A stretch of 64,000 nt of DNA. Source: Bacteroidetes bacterium GWE2_42_24. GTDB lineage: Bacteria; Bacteroidota; Bacteroidia; Bacteroidales; TTA-H9. The position numbers and the translations under genes are program-made. The notes beneath the pieces were generated by a model. That model searched no databases, was not told the DNA's origin, and worked only from the letters and a program-made list of their open reading frames with translations. How positions within the stretch are numbered: position 1 is the stretch's first letter; each line of letters starts with the position of its first letter. Where the stretch lies: positions 124,001-188,000 of the forward strand of contig MEOA01000001.1 in assembly GCA_001768515.1 (NCBI GenBank), written 5' to 3'. Of the stretch, positions 52,769 through 62,340 are shown piece after piece.

Positions 52769-53377
52769 CTACCCCGCCTTTTCGCCCTGAGGCGCTTTTG
52801 CATTGGGCGGATTGGTCCCATGAAGACTGAGCACATAGCTTGCCACCTGCAGAATCTGTTCTTTGGTGAGTTGGTCTTTAAAGGGAGCCATTCCCTTGGC
52901 TGGAACACCATTTATTAATACCTCTACTACCTTTTCGATGGAGGAACCATGAATCCAATAATCGTCGGTAAGATTGGGCCCCACAGCATTACCTTCACCC
53001 AACATACCGTGGCATGAGTAGCACAGTTTATCATTGAAAATCTTCTTACCTGCATCAAGGCTGGCCTGATCAGTAAGCTGCGTCAGTACAACGACGGTTG
53101 TATCAGCACCACTGGCCGCGGCAGAAGCAACCATTTCTGCCTGGTATTCCTCCTCCTGTGTAAGACCCTGTTTGAAGGTGTGGTAATGAACCCAATACAA
53201 GGCAGAAAAGAAGACCGTGAGGTAAAGAACATACATAAGCCACCTGGGAGGTGGGTTGTCGAGTTCGCGGATGCCATCGAATTCGTTGGGCATCAGAAGG
53301 CCTTTCTCTTTATCGGTAATGGTTACCTCTTCGCCGGGAGGCAAACTGCTTTCCGTTTTATTTCCTTCGTTATTCAT
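52769..53377 (-). CDS. ccoP: CcoP-like monoheme cytochrome c of cbb3 oxidase
   Basis: A 202-residue membrane-anchored cytochrome. One helix near residue 45-65 (L-M-Y-V-L-Y-L-T-V-F-F) is followed by one class I heme domain with C-Y-S-C-H at 119-123 and the Met ligand region K-G-M-A-P-F. Classical CcoP is about 300 residues with two hemes; here the second heme domain appears to have moved to the CcoN-CcoO fusion. ATG 53377 is preferred to an upstream in-frame start at 53419. It overlaps the CcoQ-like gene by 8 bases and ends the operon. Confidence 0.87.
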   Translation of the reverse strand: MNNEGNKTESSLPPGEEVTITDKEKGLLMPNEFDGIRELDNPPPRWLMYVLYLTVFFSALYWVHYHTFKQGLTQEEEYQAEMVASAAASGADTTVVVLTQLTDQASLDAGKKIFNDKLCYSCHGMLGEGNAVGPNLTDDYWIHGSSIEKVVEVLINGVPAKGMAPFKDQLTKEQILQVASYVLSLHGTNPPNAKAPQGEKAG

Positions 53378-53579
53378 GGTGGAGGTTTTTTTCGGTATTA
53401 ATATCTTGCGTATCCTCATCGAGTAATGGAAAGTTCTTCATCTGATCTACGAAGCCTTTACTAAGCCCCATAACAATGTATATCATTACTGCAAAAAACA
53501 ACAGGAAAAGAAGCAGAGATCCGATGGCCCAAAGCCCACCCGACTGCGATTGGTCAAAAAGTTGTTGAAAATACTGCAT
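53370..53579 (-). CDS. ccoQ: CcoQ-like small cbb3 oxidase subunit
   Basis: A 69-residue single-helix protein (S-L-L-L-F-L-L-F-F-A-V-M-I-Y) with a polar tail. Position between the CcoN-CcoO fusion and ccoP, size and topology fit CcoQ/FixQ, which stabilises the oxidase. The sequence itself is too short for a motif-based call. Confidence 0.7.
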   Translation of the reverse strand: MQYFQQLFDQSQSGGLWAIGSLLLFLLFFAVMIYIVMGLSKGFVDQMKNFPLLDEDTQDINTEKNLHHE

Positions 53580-53593
53580 GACTGTTTCTTATA

Positions 53594-56077
53594 TTAAAAT
53601 TTGCCTTCCTTCCCTTGCGGAGCTTTACCTCCGGACACATTGGTTCCCTTAATTTTCAGAGAGAAGCTATAGACCTGCTGTAATTGTAATTTTGTGAGCA
53701 AGTCTTTCCAGGCTTGCATTCCCTTGGAGGGAACCCCATTATGGATTGTAAGGTAAACAGAATCAGGAGACCCACCATGTATCCAGTAATTATCAGTCAG
53801 GTTAGGCCCGATCGCATTTCCTTCACCTGAAGCACCATGACAGGCAGCGCAATTGGCCTTAAAGACCTGAGCACCAATACTAATTGAGGCCTCATCGGTA
53901 AGCACATCAGGAGCCTTCACCGCAATGGCTGCTCCGGCATCTACAGGCTTCAACTCACTGATATCCCGTCCCAAACGGTGCATGTATGCGATCATGGCAA
54001 TGATTTCACGATCGGGTTCAACTTCGATACCCGATTGCTTCAGGTCATCGGCGATCAGTTTGGCCTGTGTCATCAAACTGTCGATTGATCTTTCAGCGAA
54101 TCCATCGGGATAGGGAACACCCAATGTAATCATGGCTTTAATCTTCACCGGGGTAGAGGCTATCTTAAGCTTATTGGCTATCAGCCAGGGGTAGGAAGGC
54201 ATGCGACTCCCGGCATTCATTTCCTGCGGATTATAGAAATGGGTGAAATGCCAGGCGGCTGTCTTGTACATCTTACCCCCAACTACACCAGCACGAGCCA
54301 GATCAGGCCCCATACGGCGAGAGCCCCACTGGAACGGGTGATCAAAGACAAATTCACCCGATTTGCTGTATTCCCCATACCTTTCTGTTTCGCTACGGAA
54401 AGGCCTGACCATCTGACTATGGCAGGTGTAGCATCCTTCACGGATATAAATATCGCGACCCTGCAATTCAAGCGGAGAATAAGGTTTTACACTGCTGATG
54501 GTAGGAATGTTAGTCTTTACTACAAACATCGGCACGATACTGATGATACTGCCGAAGAGCAGAGCTACGGCTACCCAGAAGGTAAACTGCACCGGTTTGC
54601 GCTCAACCCATCCGTGGATGGTTTCACCCAGAATACGGTGCTTGCTGATTTTTTCAAGCGGCAGCGCACTTACTTCCTCACTGGCGACAAAAGAACCCTT
54701 CTTAATTGTTTTAACAAGATTATAGACCATGATAAAGGCACCGGTGATGTATAGTGCTCCACCAACGATACGTGTCACATACATGGGGATAATCTGAACT
54801 ACAGTTTCGAGAAAGTTGGGATAACGTAAAAATCCCTCGGGAGTAAATTCTTTCCACATCAACCCCTGTGTAATGGCGGCCCAATAGAGCGGAATGGCAT
54901 AAAATAATATTCCCAGTGTGCCAAGCCAGAAATGAATATTGGCCAGCTTGTTGGAGTATAGTTTTGTACGCCACAAGACGGGGATCAGGTAATAAAGCAT
55001 GGCGAAAGTGAGAAAACCATTCCAGCCAAGACCGCCAATATGAACGTGTGCCACAATCCAGTCGGTAAAGTGAACGAGGCCGTTAATGGTTTTAATGGCG
55101 AGCATGGGCCCTTCAAATGTCACCATGCCGTACGCCGTTACTGCCACAGCCATGAACTTGAGCATGGGGGTTTCGCGAACCTTATCCCAGACACCACGCA
55201 GGGTAAGCAGTCCGTTTATCATACCACCCCATGACGGGGCGATGAGCATCACCGAAAAGATCACACCGATGGTCTGGGCCCAATCGGGCAAAGCCTGGTA
55301 AAGCAAGTGGTGTGGCCCCGACCAGATATAAATGAAGATCAGGGTCCAGAAATGAATAATTGAAAGTTTATATGAATAGATAGGTCGATTGGCGGCCTTG
55401 GGCAGGAAATAATACATAAGGCCAAGAAAAGGGGTTGTGAGAAAGAAAGCCACAGCGTTGTGTCCATACCACCACTGCACCAAAGCATCCTGAACACCGG
55501 CATAGACCGGATAACTCTTAAACAAGGATACAGGAAGTTCGATGGAGTTAAATACATGCAGTATGGTTACGGCTACCCAGGAAGCAATATAAAACCAGAT
55601 GGCTACATACAGGTGTTGAACTCTGCGTCTGGCTATGGTGCCAAACATATTCCATCCGAAAACAATCCAGATAACAGCAATCAGTAGGTCAACGGGCCAC
55701 TCCAGTTCGGCGTACTCTTTGGAGATGGTAAATCCAAGAGCGAGCGTAACAGCCGCCAAAACGATGATTAACTGCCACCCCCAGAAGTGAATGTAGCTTA
55801 ACACATCACTATACATGCGGGTCTTCAGTAATCGCTGCATCGAATAATATACCCCTGTAAAAATGGCATTTCCCACGAAGGCGAAAATCACTGCATTGGT
55901 ATGTATTGGCCGAAGCCGGCCATAAGTAGTGAAACTCACATCAAAATTAAACATTGGAAATGCCAGCTGGGCGGCAATCAACAGCCCGACGACCATCCCT
56001 ATAATTCCCCAGATGATGGTAGCGTAGGTAAAATACTTTACTATTCGGTTGTCGTACGAAAAAATTTCAGGTTGCAT
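53594..56077 (-). CDS. ccoNO: cbb3 cytochrome oxidase CcoN-CcoO fusion with an extra C-terminal cytochrome c domain
   Basis: An 827-residue fusion of three parts. Residues 1-475 are CcoN, the heme-copper subunit, with R-P-I-H-T-N, Y-G-H-N-A-V-A-F, G-P-H-H-L-L and H-V-H-I-G-G supplying heme and copper ligands. Residues 490-710 are CcoO, with its helix and heme site C-Y-T-C-H at 549-553 and Q-M-V-R-P-F-R. Residues 725-827 are a class I cytochrome c with C-A-A-C-H at 743-747, very like the stand-alone CcoP. The enzyme reduces oxygen to water and pumps protons at low oxygen. CcoN-CcoO fusions are known in Bacteroidota; the added third domain is unusual. Confidence 0.95.
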   Translation of the reverse strand: MQPEIFSYDNRIVKYFTYATIIWGIIGMVVGLLIAAQLAFPMFNFDVSFTTYGRLRPIHTNAVIFAFVGNAIFTGVYYSMQRLLKTRMYSDVLSYIHFWGWQLIIVLAAVTLALGFTISKEYAELEWPVDLLIAVIWIVFGWNMFGTIARRRVQHLYVAIWFYIASWVAVTILHVFNSIELPVSLFKSYPVYAGVQDALVQWWYGHNAVAFFLTTPFLGLMYYFLPKAANRPIYSYKLSIIHFWTLIFIYIWSGPHHLLYQALPDWAQTIGVIFSVMLIAPSWGGMINGLLTLRGVWDKVRETPMLKFMAVAVTAYGMVTFEGPMLAIKTINGLVHFTDWIVAHVHIGGLGWNGFLTFAMLYYLIPVLWRTKLYSNKLANIHFWLGTLGILFYAIPLYWAAITQGLMWKEFTPEGFLRYPNFLETVVQIIPMYVTRIVGGALYITGAFIMVYNLVKTIKKGSFVASEEVSALPLEKISKHRILGETIHGWVERKPVQFTFWVAVALLFGSIISIVPMFVVKTNIPTISSVKPYSPLELQGRDIYIREGCYTCHSQMVRPFRSETERYGEYSKSGEFVFDHPFQWGSRRMGPDLARAGVVGGKMYKTAAWHFTHFYNPQEMNAGSRMPSYPWLIANKLKIASTPVKIKAMITLGVPYPDGFAERSIDSLMTQAKLIADDLKQSGIEVEPDREIIAMIAYMHRLGRDISELKPVDAGAAIAVKAPDVLTDEASISIGAQVFKANCAACHGASGEGNAIGPNLTDNYWIHGGSPDSVYLTIHNGVPSKGMQAWKDLLTKLQLQQVYSFSLKIKGTNVSGGKAPQGKEGKF

Positions 56078-56094
56078 AGCACTACGATTTGAAT

Positions 56095-56304
56095 TTAGTT
56101 ATCATCAATATCAACCAGCGGCTCAGGTTCGGGGGTGTCGGCAGGGTTATCGTCACCGGGTGTCTTATCATCATCAAAGAGTATCCTGACTGAAGGGGTG
56201 TAATCATCATCATACTGACCGTTACGAACGGCCCAAAGAAACGCAACCAGAAAACCGGAAGCAACTAACAAACTGGCTGCGACTAAGATTAAAATTACCT
56301 TCAT
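56095..56304 (-). CDS. ccoS: CcoS, cbb3 oxidase assembly protein
   Basis: A 69-residue protein with one N-terminal helix, then F-L-W-A-V-R-N-G-Q-Y-D-D, the CcoS signature, and an acidic tail. CcoS is needed for cofactor insertion into CcoN. It is 17 bases upstream of the fusion gene and has its own promoter candidate. Confidence 0.88.
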   Translation of the reverse strand: MKVILILVAASLLVASGFLVAFLWAVRNGQYDDDYTPSVRILFDDDKTPGDDNPADTPEPEPLVDIDDN

Positions 56305-56465: not shown

Positions 56466-58871
56466 TTATTTAAAAGCAAGTCGTCTGGCAACCAGATGAA
56501 CCACACCTGTAATAAATAACACCACAGTGACAGAACTCAGAGGCATTAAAATGGCCGCAACGACTGGCGATAGTAAACCCCGGACAGCAAATGTCAATCC
56601 AATGACATTGTATGAAATAGAAATAAAAAAGCTCATCCTGACGATAGCAGTTGCCTTCCTTGATAAACTTATAAAGTCTGCCAGCCGTCCAAAGGCTCTG
56701 GCTTCAAGGATGGCATCACTGGCTGGTGAAAAATGATATACATCGTCGGCCAAAGATATTCCGGCAAAAGCTTCCCTTAAAGCGCCGGCATCATTAAGCC
56801 CATCGCCAATCATGAGCGGTTTTAATCCTTTATTCCTGAGGTGTCTGATATATTCCAGCTTATCGGCAGGAGACATGTCAAATGAAAAGAAAGCTTCGCT
56901 ACCCATTAACTGCATAAGAGCACCCCGTTCTGCGTCATTATCGCCACTGATCACATGTATCGGGCCTACTCTTCTGAGATGAGGAAGCATCGGTTCCAGA
57001 CCTTTCCGGTAGCTGTTGCCAATAGAAAAGAATCCACGGTATTGCCCGTCAAATACAATATGAACAGCTGAAACATTGACGTTCACTGATTCATCAACTG
57101 GTACTTCAAGCCAGGCGGATGAACCAGCTCTAACCTCCACACCATTAATATTGCCTAAAATACCCCGCGCTGAAAGCTCCCTGAAGTTGATCACCGGCAG
57201 CGCTGTTGAATCGGTCAGGTATCCGGCTACTGCCTGACTCAGTGGATGGACTGAGCTGCGGCACAACGACCTGATGAGCTGTCTCTCTACATCAGTAAGA
57301 GGTCTTCCCTGCCAGTCAACCTGTCGATCGTCAGTAAGAGTCAGGGTACCCGTCTTATCAAACACCACAACATCAACGTTTGACAGATTCTCTACAACCC
57401 CAGACTCACGAAGATAAAGTCCACGGCGACCCATAATCTGCATTGTGGTTCCATATGCAAATGGAAGCGTAAGCGCAAGGGCGCAGGGACAAGCCACGAT
57501 CAGGACTGAAACAAAAGCTATCAGAGCACGACCCGGATCAAACCACAGCCATCCCAATAGTGTTAATGAAGCTATAATAAGCAACCCAATGGTAAAACGA
57601 CGACTAACAATATCCACCAACCTCATGAACCGGTGTTTTGGGCGATTGTCGGTTTCCTGATTCCAAAGTCTGGTTAGTTTGCTTTGCTCCACCTCCTCTT
57701 CAATTTCAATTGTAATCCCACCACCTGTTTGCCGGCCACCGGCATAGACGGCCTCCCCGGCTTGTTTACGTACAGGAAGCGACTCGCCGGTAACAAAGGC
57801 ATAGTTTATGATGGCCTCTCCATCTATCAGTATCCCATCGGAGGGAATAAGTTCCTGATTATGGATCAACAGCAAATCACCCTTCTTAATATCCTGTAAC
57901 ATTAAAGATTCCTCTTTTCCTTCCCTCAGCCGGGTAACAGCAACCGGAAAATAGGATTTGTAGCTACGCTCAAAGGATAAAGCCTGATAGGTTCTTCCCT
58001 GATACCAGCGCCCGATAAGCAGAAAAAAAACAAATCCGGCAAGTGAATCAAAATAACCGGAACCCGCAGCAGTGACAACCTCATAAAGGCTTTGACAAAA
58101 CAAGGTAATTATACCAATTACAATTGGAACGTCGAGGTTCAGTATCCCCTTTCTCAAATTGCTAAAAGCAGATTCGTAATAATCTCTGGCTGAAAAGACA
58201 ACAACCGGGAGAACCAATAAAAGATTTATCCAGCCGAAAAAATCACGGAATGTAAGCTCCAGTCCCTCTTTGTGAGCCAGGTAATCGGGCAGACTCAGTA
58301 ACATAATGTTGGAGAAAGCAAATCCGGCCACCCCAATCTGATAGATAATCCTTCGGTTCACTTTCCTGCTACGGCCCCTCTCCATATCTTCGAGTGTAAT
58401 CTCAGGCTCATAATGTAAGTCGGCCAGCAACCGGACAATTTGTCGAAGTGTTGTTTTGCTGTTATCCCATGTGATGGTCACTTCCTTTTTTACAAAGTTG
58501 ACAATCGAACGGCTGATACCGTCATCAAGTCGTTCCAGATTCTCAAGCAACCAGATGCAACTACTGCAATGGATGGTCGGGATGTAAAGGGTAGCCCTGT
58601 AAGTATTATCTTGCTTGAATTCGATCAATTTCTCAACCAGTTCATCGTTGTCGAGCCATGAGAATGACTGGTTCAAGGGACGCGGTTCCACAGCAAATTT
58701 AACACCGGGGGTCTCCATGATGGTGTAATACTGTTGCATCTTATACTGGTTCAGCAACTGGTATACCGACTTGCAGCCATTACAGCAAAAATCCTTTCCA
58801 TCATATCCGACGGGCACTGCACCACAATCCTCCCCACAATGGAAACAAGGCGTATATTTGGGATCAGCCAT
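56466..58871 (-). CDS. ccoI: Copper-exporting P-type ATPase CcoI/FixI
   Basis: An 801-residue P1B ATPase that supplies copper for cbb3 oxidase. An N-terminal C-F-H-C-G-E-D-C and C-C-N-G-C zinc-ribbon-like unit is followed by a heavy-metal domain with C-S-S-C (about residue 103), then T-G-E-S, the membrane motif A-C-P-C-A-L-A-L, phosphorylation site D-K-T-G-T-L-T and G-D-G-L-N-D. The first domain is typical of CcoI. ATG 58871 is preferred to TTG 58877. It lies within the respiratory operon. Confidence 0.94.
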   Translation of the reverse strand: MADPKYTPCFHCGEDCGAVPVGYDGKDFCCNGCKSVYQLLNQYKMQQYYTIMETPGVKFAVEPRPLNQSFSWLDNDELVEKLIEFKQDNTYRATLYIPTIHCSSCIWLLENLERLDDGISRSIVNFVKKEVTITWDNSKTTLRQIVRLLADLHYEPEITLEDMERGRSRKVNRRIIYQIGVAGFAFSNIMLLSLPDYLAHKEGLELTFRDFFGWINLLLVLPVVVFSARDYYESAFSNLRKGILNLDVPIVIGIITLFCQSLYEVVTAAGSGYFDSLAGFVFFLLIGRWYQGRTYQALSFERSYKSYFPVAVTRLREGKEESLMLQDIKKGDLLLIHNQELIPSDGILIDGEAIINYAFVTGESLPVRKQAGEAVYAGGRQTGGGITIEIEEEVEQSKLTRLWNQETDNRPKHRFMRLVDIVSRRFTIGLLIIASLTLLGWLWFDPGRALIAFVSVLIVACPCALALTLPFAYGTTMQIMGRRGLYLRESGVVENLSNVDVVVFDKTGTLTLTDDRQVDWQGRPLTDVERQLIRSLCRSSVHPLSQAVAGYLTDSTALPVINFRELSARGILGNINGVEVRAGSSAWLEVPVDESVNVNVSAVHIVFDGQYRGFFSIGNSYRKGLEPMLPHLRRVGPIHVISGDNDAERGALMQLMGSEAFFSFDMSPADKLEYIRHLRNKGLKPLMIGDGLNDAGALREAFAGISLADDVYHFSPASDAILEARAFGRLADFISLSRKATAIVRMSFFISISYNVIGLTFAVRGLLSPVVAAILMPLSSVTVVLFITGVVHLVARRLAFK

Positions 58872-58894
58872 AATCAAATCGTTCTTTATAGATC

Positions 58895-58981: not shown

Positions 58982-59926
58982 TCATGCTTCCTTTTTGGCA
59001 ATCTTCATCACGTTCATTACCACATATCCCATTGTACCCCAAACAATCAGCAAGGCACCAAAAAAGGTAATGATGATGTAAAGTGGAGCTACACGTGAAC
59101 GCCCCCATAGGGTGCGCTCTTCTGTGATATTGACCATTACTGATGGTTTTCCACAGATTGCATCAATTGAATCGGAGGCAGCGCCAAACTTATCGGGTTC
59201 AGCGATTCGGGCAAAGATATGAAGCATTCCGGAAGTATCACCGGGCAGATTTCGCGGTATTGATACACCAACACGTCCTTCCTGATTGGTATGGTCGACC
59301 TCCTCACTTATCGGAAGGTTTCCGAAATAGCGCCTTATGAAAAAGGCCACAGGCACACCAGGTGCAGGAACTGTCTCTCCCTCCTCGTTTACGATTGTAA
59401 GTGTCGCTATCAATGAAGTGTCTGAATCTCTATATTTAAGTTTCAGGGTGATGGGCTGTCCCGACAAGGAGGCTGAAGCAACAGATAAATCTGCAGGTAA
59501 TGTATCTAAGATTATCTCTCCTGCACCGGCACTACTTTTTTTTTTAAGGCTACGTACGAAGTGGATAATACTCCATTTGTCATTATCGGATATTACCTCG
59601 GCAAATTTGGGCATTGCACCACGGCCTGTCTGAATCTTGAAAAACATTTCGCCATCGGTCTGGCCCTGGTATTTATCACTTGCAGGGTCTGTTGGCTTAG
59701 GCACCAGGGGTAGACCGTTTCCCTTGCCGGGATCTCCATGACATGACTTGCAATGGGTAATATAGAGGCTCTTACCTTTTTCAATAACAGCCGGGGAAAC
59801 AGCCACAGGGTTTTTTACACTCTTTTTAGCAGCAGGAACCTGCCAGGGTACAGTTGCCTGGCCCATTACAAGCGTTGCACTCCACAAAAGAGATAGTGCT
59901 AAGAATAACTTTAGGTTTGATTTCAT
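58982..59926 (-). CDS. Membrane-anchored monoheme cytochrome c with Ig-like region
   Basis: A 314-residue exported protein: signal peptide (to about residue 22), class I cytochrome c domain with C-K-S-C-H at 59-63 and Met 105 in R-G-A-M-P-K-F, an Ig-like region (about residues 140-265, P-I-T-L-K-L-K-Y-R-D-S), and a C-terminal helix (about 280-303). The heme faces the periplasm. It follows the NrfD-like gene by 16 bases and could carry electrons from it to the oxidase. The link to cbb3 is inferred from the operon. Confidence 0.82.
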   Translation of the reverse strand: MKSNLKLFLALSLLWSATLVMGQATVPWQVPAAKKSVKNPVAVSPAVIEKGKSLYITHCKSCHGDPGKGNGLPLVPKPTDPASDKYQGQTDGEMFFKIQTGRGAMPKFAEVISDNDKWSIIHFVRSLKKKSSAGAGEIILDTLPADLSVASASLSGQPITLKLKYRDSDTSLIATLTIVNEEGETVPAPGVPVAFFIRRYFGNLPISEEVDHTNQEGRVGVSIPRNLPGDTSGMLHIFARIAEPDKFGAASDSIDAICGKPSVMVNITEERTLWGRSRVAPLYIIITFFGALLIVWGTMGYVVMNVMKIAKKEA

Positions 59927-59942
59927 CTTTGCAGAGATATAA

Positions 59943-61286
59943 TTATTTGATTATTGACTCATCGACACCCTTTTCATGGGCAATCTCCCAAACAGAAATC
60001 ACGGGAAATAGTTTGGCGATAATGGTAATAATTAACAGGACACCAGCAAATGGCAGGATGGTAAGGGTTATTTCGATACCTGTCGGAATATAGTGATGAA
60101 AGCTTTCGGGTACATTCTGGATGGGAAGATAAGGGTGCTGCTGAACAGGTACAACAATAAGGAAACGTTTCAACCAGGCACCAATCAATACCAGTACCGA
60201 TAGCCACAACATCGTGAAAGGACGACGCATTCGCTTGAAAATCAGCAGAAAGGATGGTATTGCCAGACAAGCGATCTGTGTAAACCAATAGAGAATGGCC
60301 CAGTGACCAGTGAACATCTCATCGAGGTGCAACTTTTCGGCAGTCCTCATCTTGTACGCGGGCACAAAATACTCATTCAAGTTGAAATAAATATATATGG
60401 CTGAAACCAACACGAGCACCTGCCCCATACGGTTGAAATGAAAGTCGGTAATATAATCACTCAGTTTATAGTTATACCTGAAGAAATACATGGCGATGAT
60501 GACGGCTGCAACACCGGCTACAAAGGCTCCGCTGACGAAGTAAGGACCAAAGATAGCACTGTCCCATCCGGCACGAAGGGTGGCTGCAAAAAGCCATGAA
60601 GTGACGGTATGGATTGCCAGGGCCACCGGGATAATCAGAATCGCAAGAATGCGCATTGCCTTTTTGATAATACGGTATTGCTCGGGTCGTGCCTCCCAGC
60701 CCAGGTATAGCAGATCATATATTTTCATCTGCCACTTTGGAAGGTTGGGTAAACGCCGGCGGATAATAGCTGCATCGGGGATGAGTGGCAAAAGCAACAA
60801 CAAAAGACTGATTGCCACATAAGTTGAAACGACTGTCACGTCCCACAGAATTGGAGATTGAAACCGTCCGTGAAGGAAAACATTGAGTAACCTATCGGGA
60901 CGTCCCATATCGATGACGATGACGATGCCGGCCCACATGGCAAAAGCCAGTGCAATCATCTCAGCAATTCTCGTAATTGGCGTAATCCATTTTATTTTTA
61001 ATAACCCGAGTACCGAACTGATAAACATACCGATGAGGCTGGCAGCCACAAAAAAAACGAAATTACCGATGTACATTCCCCAGGATGAGTAATCCCTCAT
61101 GGCTGTAACCCCTAATCCATCGCGAAGCTGTATAAAGTAAGCGTACCCGCCTACAATAAAAATTAAAATCAAAAACAGAATCCACAACTCGAAACCTTTA
61201 TGATGGGTCATCGGGCGAAGCAAATCCGTCTCTATTTTATCGAGCGACTTATAGCTCTCTTCAGTTGATAGTTTATTAACCGACAT
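59943..61286 (-). CDS. NrfD/ActC-like quinol-interacting membrane subunit
   Basis: A 447-residue membrane protein with about ten helices. W-G-M-Y-I-G-N-F-V-F-F, D-M-G-R-P-D-R-L-L-N and P-I-L-W-D-V are typical of the NrfD/PsrC/ActC superfamily, which oxidises menaquinol. At about 450 residues it is closer to ActC/PsrC than to short NrfD (about 320). It lies between the FeS and cytochrome c genes with 49- and 16-base gaps. No multiheme ActA or molybdopterin subunit accompanies it. Confidence 0.85.
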   Translation of the reverse strand: MSVNKLSTEESYKSLDKIETDLLRPMTHHKGFELWILFLILIFIVGGYAYFIQLRDGLGVTAMRDYSSWGMYIGNFVFFVAASLIGMFISSVLGLLKIKWITPITRIAEMIALAFAMWAGIVIVIDMGRPDRLLNVFLHGRFQSPILWDVTVVSTYVAISLLLLLLPLIPDAAIIRRRLPNLPKWQMKIYDLLYLGWEARPEQYRIIKKAMRILAILIIPVALAIHTVTSWLFAATLRAGWDSAIFGPYFVSGAFVAGVAAVIIAMYFFRYNYKLSDYITDFHFNRMGQVLVLVSAIYIYFNLNEYFVPAYKMRTAEKLHLDEMFTGHWAILYWFTQIACLAIPSFLLIFKRMRRPFTMLWLSVLVLIGAWLKRFLIVVPVQQHPYLPIQNVPESFHHYIPTGIEITLTILPFAGVLLIITIIAKLFPVISVWEIAHEKGVDESIIK

Positions 61287-61335: not shown

Positions 61336-62340
61336 CTATCCCCTTCCACCGCCAACACGGCTGTCTTCAGGATCAATAGTGGTTTTGCCTTCATATTGAT
61401 AGGGGAACAACCTGTTTTTGGGCGGCAGGTAATAAACCTGAGGTTTGGTACCAAGCTCTTCGAGTACGGTATAACCACCATTCTTCCGGATAAGTTCACT
61501 GAAGCGTACAGTTTCCCTGGTGGTACCGTTAGTAACAGTATCCTCATTCAGATCACCGAAGTAATAGACTCCGTTGGGGCACGCCCGCGTGCAATAGGGA
61601 AGTTCGCCCTTACGCAAACAGTCAGCACTGAACAGGCACTTGGAGATTGTTCCTTTCCGCTGAGGTACATTCAATTCAACATCATAGGGTATATCTTTGT
61701 CCTCTTCCGATTTGAGTGGCTCTATCCAATTAAATACACGTGCTGAGTATGGACAGGCAGCAATGCAGAAACGGCAACCAATACAACGTTGATTGTCGAT
61801 CAGCACGATGCCATCCTGACGTTTGAAAGTAGCATCAACCGGACAAACCTTAGTACAGGGTGGATTGTCGCAATGATAGCATGGCTTAGGCATAAAGTAG
61901 GGCTCGGTATTTTCGGCATCCTGCATCCGCAGCACATTGATGTGATGCTGCTCTGGTCTGAGGTGATGAGCCCCCTGACAAGCAGCCATGCACATACGGG
62001 CATTCCGGCATTTCGACAGATCGATCACCATCACCCAGTGCTTCCCGGGCAATCCTTCGCGACCACGACGCTGAAGTTCGCTCTCCTCATTGGTGCCCTG
62101 ATTAGCTGCCTCAATTAACTCTGCCTCACTCACCTCCATTAGCTGACCATCTGCAGTCAATACCCTAACTTTCTTCCCATCCGGATTTTTCTTCTGTTCA
62201 TGGTCATACCCTAAATATACAGCCCCTGCAGTCATGGCAGCACCTGCACCGACCACCAGCCCAAGCTTTTTTAAAAAACCACGACGGGCATTATTTTCTT
62301 CCTGTTGAGAACTGTTTGATAGATTTTTAGCTTCTTCCAT
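61336..62340 (-). CDS. Tat-exported four-motif iron-sulfur protein with altered cluster cysteines
   Basis: A 334-residue protein of the NrfC/HybA/DmsB type. A Tat-like signal R-R-G-F-L-K-K (19-25) precedes a hydrophobic stretch. Cysteines are at 111, 117, 121; 154, 157, 162, 166; 186, 189, 192, 196; and 235, 241, 250, 254. Motif 1 has Ala114 and motif 4 has Ser238 where the second Cys is usual. Motifs 1 and 4 normally build one pair of clusters, so that pair may be [3Fe-4S] or rearranged (Cys241 may substitute). It heads the operon and would pass electrons from the NrfD subunit. Confidence 0.87.
   Translation of the reverse strand: MEEAKNLSNSSQQEENNARRGFLKKLGLVVGAGAAMTAGAVYLGYDHEQKKNPDGKKVRVLTADGQLMEVSEAELIEAANQGTNEESELQRRGREGLPGKHWVMVIDLSKCRNARMCMAACQGAHHLRPEQHHINVLRMQDAENTEPYFMPKPCYHCDNPPCTKVCPVDATFKRQDGIVLIDNQRCIGCRFCIAACPYSARVFNWIEPLKSEEDKDIPYDVELNVPQRKGTISKCLFSADCLRKGELPYCTRACPNGVYYFGDLNEDTVTNGTTRETVRFSELIRKNGGYTVLEELGTKPQVYYLPPKNRLFPYQYEGKTTIDPEDSRVGGGRG

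Follow-up and report, generated by a model that had tools for sequence, protein, structure and literature searches.

The iron-sulfur protein encoded towards one end of the analysed stretch of DNA (64 kb from Bacteroidetes bacterium GWE2_42_24, hereafter called the window) has the four cysteine motifs and the PsrB fold by which members of the PsrB/NrfC/ActB2/DsrO superfamily are recognised. Its motifs contain 14 cysteines compared to 16 in the full set (fifteen with one [3Fe-4S] cluster), a count that varies across the superfamily and hence does not exclude the protein from it. The question raised by the locus is why the second cysteine is missing from both motif I and motif IV, and in which type of complex such a protein works.

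The positions of the relevant features are summarised in Table 1. Translation of the open reading frame agreed with the preliminary description, which had reported Ala114 in motif I and Ser238 in motif IV and had considered motifs II and III to be intact; descriptions and coordinates of both changes are correct, and all eight cysteines of the latter two motifs were found. The protein matched the Pfam families Fer4_11 and Fer4_7. Since its N-terminus is a twin-arginine signal (R19-R20), it should be located in the periplasm.

Table 1 Features of the iron-sulfur protein and of the surrounding operon (positions in the window)
Feature	Position	Strand	Length	Characteristics
CcoP-type cytochrome c subunit	52769..53419	-	216 aa	
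Fused CcoN-CcoO-cytochrome c	53594..56077	-	827 aa	cbb3 oxidase core
CcoS-like small ORF	56095..56304	-	69 aa	named from size, position and appearance only
CcoI/FixI-like copper P-type ATPase	56466..58877	-		
Monoheme cytochrome c	58982..59926	-	314 aa	CKSCH, axial Met105; fused beta-sandwich and C-terminal transmembrane helix
NrfD/ActC-type integral membrane quinol-binding subunit	59943..61286	-	447 aa	PF03916, E 7.5e-34
Iron-sulfur (FeS) subunit	61336..62340	-	334 aa	15 Cys; periplasmic four-cluster ferredoxin-type, ActB2/PsrB/DsrO-like, twin-Arg signal
Motif IV, C235-x2-S238-x2-C241-x8-C250-x3-C254	61579..61638	-		Ser238 in place of second Cys, codon AGT 61627-61629
Motif III, C186-x2-C189-x2-C192-x3-C196	61753..61785	-		intact; motif altered in ActB of alternative complex III
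Motif II, C154-x2-C157-x4-C162-x3-C166	61843..61881	-		intact
Motif I, C111-x5-C117-x3-C121	61978..62010	-		Ala114 in place of second Cys, codon GCC 61999-62001
Tat (twin-arginine) signal, N-terminal	62221..62292	-		R19-R20 invariant or nearly so

The search for homologues covered named genome contigs as well as genomes sampled at the family, order and phylum level, and yielded 96 distinct full-length proteins. The remaining 14 motif cysteines are kept in all 96, and positions 114 and 238 are the only motif-cysteine places that vary. Position 114 is occupied by Ala (84), Val (6), Leu (3), Cys (2) or Glu (1); drift between small hydrophobic residues, as observed there, is the usual appearance of a [3Fe-4S] site. 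Position 238 is Ser in 58 proteins and Cys in 38; the 58 Ser proteins make up one Bacteroidales clade, in which this residue never varies. The Ser codons of this clade (56 AGY, two TCT) would be in line with a constraint of long duration; they do not settle the matter, however, as a switch from AGY to TCN is difficult anyway. The homologue alignment, which had been proposed as a check, thus shows both changes to be conserved; the loss has been passed on throughout the order Bacteroidales. Because the changes are conserved and the other 14 cysteines are invariant, cluster ligation appears to be under selection rather than decaying. The additional Cys241 noted in the preliminary description is indeed present in the window protein, but it is not conserved in the family: position 241 is occupied by a wide range of residues (R, M, L, C, Q, K and others), with Cys only in near relatives of the window protein and in the loci L122, L097 and L117. 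This variability rules out a role of Cys241 as compensating or replacement ligand.

A maximum-likelihood tree built without columns 114 and 238 placed the 58 Ser238 proteins in a single group with a support of 100. On the family tree, the absence of Cys114 and the presence of Ser238 correspond to one change each. When four distant 16-Cys outgroup rows were added, a free quick tree split the Ser238 rows; however, the tree holding all 58 rows together fitted the outgroup set better (lnL higher by 13.4, p-AU 0.70). Since all 16 cysteines are kept in four more distant relatives and in two near ones, the losses look derived, and the succession would most simply be a 16-Cys protein, loss in motif I and then loss in motif IV. 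Tandem FeS-NrfD duplicates were observed at three loci (L026, 5941-11594; L109, 6912-11707; L066, 6148-10683), and at L026 one copy has Ala114, while the adjacent copy has all 16 cysteines. Two FeS-NrfD paralogues per genome are also found in G004 (L010 and L007), G223 (L072 and L124) and G010 (L117 and L116). Paralogue pairs in several genomes consist of one Ser238 and one Cys238 type, or of two Ser238 types.

In ferredoxin-type pairs such as those of NarH and PsrB, the first three cysteines of a motif and the last cysteine of its partner motif bind one cluster. By this rule, motif I and C254 form FS1, motif IV and C121 form FS2, and motifs II and III form FS3 and FS4. Both losses therefore fall in one cluster pair, as had been claimed. 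Replacement of the second cysteine of CxxCxxCxxxC, with three cysteines left, is the classical [3Fe-4S] signature known from NarH and succinate dehydrogenase B. From the loss of the second cysteine of motif I (Ala/Val), FS1 is predicted to be a [3Fe-4S] cluster. FS2 may be a second [3Fe-4S] cluster or a Ser-ligated [4Fe-4S] cluster, both being compatible with the sequence. The clusters of motifs II and III should both be [4Fe-4S], because all eight cysteines are kept.

The single [3Fe-4S] cluster of alternative complex III (ACIII) had been regarded as an interesting parallel. This holds true for the affiliation of the protein with the ACIII world, given that its NrfD partner is nearest to ActC and the haem domain of its cytochrome is like ActE, but the position of the cluster is the opposite one (motif III in ACIII, motifs I and IV here). 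ActB of R. marinus lacks the second cysteine of motif III (CIGTRYC), and ActB of six more Bacteroidota genomes reads C(I/V)GTRYC at this place, with motif I intact in all six and motif IV intact in the five in which the scan captured it. The window protein reads CIGCRFC, compared to CIGTRYC or CVGTRYC in the seven ActB proteins, and the site equivalent to the [3Fe-4S] site of ACIII is thus ruled out as the altered one. Motif III of NarH is CRGWRMC. The single [3Fe-4S] cluster of ACIII is located close to both membrane and quinol site (PMC5928083), and QrcC also has a quinone-proximal [3Fe-4S] cluster (PMC6303296). The motif III changes of ActB and NarH indicate that the membrane-proximal clusters are those of the motif II/III pair. 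This pair is unchanged in the window protein, and the altered one is the distal pair. Since the six remaining cysteines of motifs I and IV as well as Ser238 are invariant, both distal clusters are probably still present.

An AlphaFold model of the iron-sulfur protein, computed from 54 homologues, reached a mean pLDDT of 84, with values of 91-98 around motifs I and IV; such models carry no clusters. Foldseek identified PsrB as the best match (2vpw_B, E 2.5e-18, TM 0.80 on target), and ArrB and ActB were also retrieved. The structure prediction suggested in the preliminary description hence returned a PsrB fold, and the model shows no degeneration of the fold in the surroundings of the altered motifs.

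The nearest solved chains of the adjacent NrfD protein are all ActC (6btm_C, 6f0k_C; E 2.9e-45 to 2.7e-43). The quinone-site residues S164 and D169 of ActC and the gating R395 are kept as S144, D149 and R374, while ActC H139 is replaced by D126 and ActC D253 by Leu. An Asp at the place of D126 is also found in QrcD and DsrP (PMC8076601). None of the residues D126, S144, D149 and R374 varies among the 55 sequences of the clade that were compared. In the cytochrome, Met105 and CxxCH are invariant in the compared sequences, and the best Foldseek match was ActE (6lod_E, E 8e-7), with 6f0k_E in third place. The cbb3 gene of the window (53594-56077) is a triple fusion, and a short CcoP is encoded separately; comparable fusions with two haems (approximately 820-830 aa) are present at L089 and L124.

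The gene order FeS-NrfD-fused cytochrome was found in 32 of 34 loci of the Ser238 clade, compared to none of 38 loci of the Cys238 sister group. Oxidase genes (cbb3 or caa3) are located within 7 kb in 17 of 31 Ser238-clade loci, but in none of 32 Cys238 loci. In the Cys238 group, the cytochrome and the beta-sandwich/membrane parts are encoded by separate genes. The conserved operons of this group (L070, L072, L073, L103, L104 and similar ones) comprise a small cytochrome c and a DUF5777 membrane beta-barrel, followed by the iron-sulfur protein, NrfD, a beta-sandwich/transmembrane protein and a monoheme cytochrome, often with a heptahaem cytochrome and a cytochrome b561 ahead of the iron-sulfur gene. 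They may encode a periplasmic or outer-membrane electron export complex, for which no description was found in the open-access papers searched.

The host genome, which is about 97% complete, yielded neither ActD (PF11821) nor a PF00033 cytochrome b. This genome features two haem-copper oxidases and only two NrfD genes. The second NrfD gene lies beside a 16-Cys PsrB-type gene and a 756-aa ORF (L085; host contig C52, 9000-22000), a region that is probably a Psr-like molybdoenzyme operon. ActD was absent from 13 of the 15 Ser238-type genomes tested, and both ActD and cytochrome b were absent from nine of the 15, including the single-contig genome G220; all nine genomes in which Cys238 is the sole type contain ActD. 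The one-sided probability of the ActD split is near 4e-5, uncorrected for relatedness, and shared ancestry confounds the absence of ActD as well as the oxidase linkage, because Ser238 arose in one event. Weak PF00033 matches inside open frames of approximately 907-923 aa were observed in G003, G004, G223, G126 and G101, suggesting a long protein with a cytochrome b-like segment. Because ActD and cytochrome b are missing and the absence of ActD tracks the Ser238 type, the three-gene module is the foremost candidate for catalysing quinol:cytochrome c electron transfer in these bacteria.

We consider it reasonably probable that the iron-sulfur protein serves for electron transfer within a minimal, ACIII-like quinol:cytochrome c oxidoreductase of three subunits, which feeds the adjacent cbb3 oxidase and has remodelled distal clusters. 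From the observed sequence changes, their conservation, the tree, the gene order and the missing alternatives we infer cluster types, potentials, electron route and oxidoreductase activity. The module (iron-sulfur protein, NrfD/ActC-type subunit and tethered ActE-like cytochrome c) would replace bc1 or canonical ACIII, both apparently missing from the host, and it probably stands in for the usual complex III as the supplier of electrons to the oxygen-reducing enzyme. Menaquinol would be oxidised in NrfD, next to the clusters of motifs II and III; electrons would enter the iron-sulfur protein at these intact clusters and proceed via the tethered haem c to the oxidase. The second cysteine of motif I (now Ala/Val) would have been lost in a first step. 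In a later step, the cysteine of motif IV would have been replaced by an invariant Ser in the Bacteroidales clade with fused cytochromes and often oxidase-linked operons. As no molybdenum subunit follows at the far end, a low-potential catalytic site no longer has to be matched by the distal clusters. Removal of one ligand is a known way to a [3Fe-4S] cluster of higher potential, which fits a cytochrome c as acceptor. The distal pair would thus likely serve as the outer half of the wire with raised potential, tuned to haem c and not to a catalytic molybdenum subunit. Against this reading it can be held that, in ACIII, the proximal cluster is regarded as the exit point of the electrons and the outer clusters as a possible dead end (PMC5928083, PMC8552683); the distal pair of the module would then not have to carry current.

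The complex is not ACIII itself, since ActA, ActB1, ActD and ActF are absent. It also speaks against the ACIII-like reading that the nearest NCBIfam model is DsrO (NF045797, E 3.8e-52), and that the best solved relatives of the iron-sulfur protein are PsrB and ArrB, not ActB. An identity as DsrO was rejected because the score of 177.1 bits is below the cut-off value of 200 bits and DsrMKJ partners are missing; no Dsr genes were found among the operon neighbours in the 64-kb window.

How the distal pair is built and used can be read in several ways. As a sub-case of the remodelled-cluster complex favoured above, the oxygen of Ser238 could ligate a [4Fe-4S] cluster, leaving FS1 as the only [3Fe-4S] cluster; as in ACIII, a single cluster would then deviate from the rest, but it would lie distally. 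This is suggested by the strict invariance of Ser238 (58/58), whereas Ala and Val interchange at position 114, and by the varied residues that bare [3Fe-4S] sites usually tolerate (Trp in NarH, Thr in ActB). On the other hand, native Ser ligands to clusters are rare, and the serine might just as well be held constant by packing or by a hydrogen bond; we regard Ser ligation as a serious possibility with slightly less than even chances. In a more far-reaching version, the wire of a minimal complex III in Bacteroidales without bc1 and ACIII would end in the adjacent [3Fe-4S] clusters FS1 and FS2, and electrons would exit distally to the tethered cytochrome c, the reverse of the ACIII/Qrc layout with its [3Fe-4S] cluster at the quinone; we propose this version only tentatively, as an unlikely one. 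The distal clusters could also be a dead end, as proposed for ACIII (PMC8552683): electrons would pass from the quinone-proximal cluster to haem c, and the ligands of motifs I and IV would have changed as the current ceased, the clusters being kept for structure or as an electron buffer. In line with this, haem I of ACIII docks approximately 11 Å from the proximal cluster, with the role of FeS2-4 unresolved (PMC5928083), ACIII of F. johnsoniae showed only two of four clusters (PMC8552683), and the catalytic subunit normally fed by FS1 is missing here. However, none of the 96 proteins deviates at the six remaining cysteines of motifs I and IV and none of the 58 clade members at Ser238, a degree of constraint beyond that needed by a spare site, and we find a dead end doubtful.

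The loss of two of 16 ligands could also point to a degenerate subunit with empty FS1 and FS2 sites, whose gene is on its way out. Given the 14 invariant cysteines, the confidently predicted fold, the conserved gene order and the stability of the loss across the whole clade, this is very improbable. An error in sequencing or assembly, or a change confined to the host genome, would be expected to leave homologues with all sixteen cysteines; instead, the nearest homologues lack the same two. Both changes are common to orthologues from independent assemblies of many genera, and the PsrB-type paralogue of the same genome keeps all 16 cysteines. These findings rule out an artefact or a private change for all practical purposes.

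Should the proposed function as a minimal oxidoreductase be right, the complex III used by a large group of Bacteroidales is far smaller than any characterised one. The role of the outer clusters, which is open in ACIII, would then become approachable through a natural series of 16-Cys, single-loss and double-loss proteins of one family, and the two losses yield exact EPR predictions. FeS-NrfD pairs without a molybdenum subunit are already known, as are ACIII and Qrc versions with a proximal [3Fe-4S] cluster. No description of the three-gene module or of conserved second-Cys losses in both distal motifs was found in the open-access papers searched.

Compared to known systems, the module shares with ACIII (ActA-F; PDB 6btm, 6f0k, 6lod, 8k9e) the ActC-type NrfD, the ActE-like haem domain and an iron-sulfur protein homologous to domain B2 of ActB. 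ACIII genes also often adjoin cytochrome c oxidase genes, and the same reaction is presumed. In contrast to ACIII, the module has no ActA multihaem cytochrome, ActB1, ActD or ActF (the B1 domain of ActB is absent from the 334-aa protein), and its operon encodes one NrfD and one monoheme cytochrome, the latter fused to a beta-sandwich and a transmembrane helix. The altered cysteines are located in motifs I and IV, whereas those of ActB are in motif III. The 'ActDE fusion' of Melioribacter roseus was ruled out as an example of the same three-gene layout, as it is part of a full ACIII with ActA and ActF (PMC3534657).

The menaquinone reductase QrcABCD resembles the module in the dimeric FeS-NrfD unit (QrcCD) with one [3Fe-4S] cluster and in the quinone-site Asp (D126 here, D120 in QrcD). 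It differs in the quinone-proximal position of this cluster (PMC6303296), in the possession of QrcA and QrcB and in the direction of the reaction, since Qrc reduces menaquinone. Modules of the NrfCD/MccCD type and DsrOP likewise combine an iron-sulfur protein and NrfD without a molybdenum subunit and donate to c-type cytochromes, as reported for NrfCD-type pairs (PMC3534657). Their partners are nitrite, sulfite or Dsr proteins, whereas oxidases are found here, and they are described with four [4Fe-4S] clusters (PMC8076601). The module also differs from the [3Fe-4S] sites of NarH and succinate dehydrogenase B: the change in NarH affects motif III, proximal to the membrane haem, while the changes observed here affect motif I and, in addition, motif IV.
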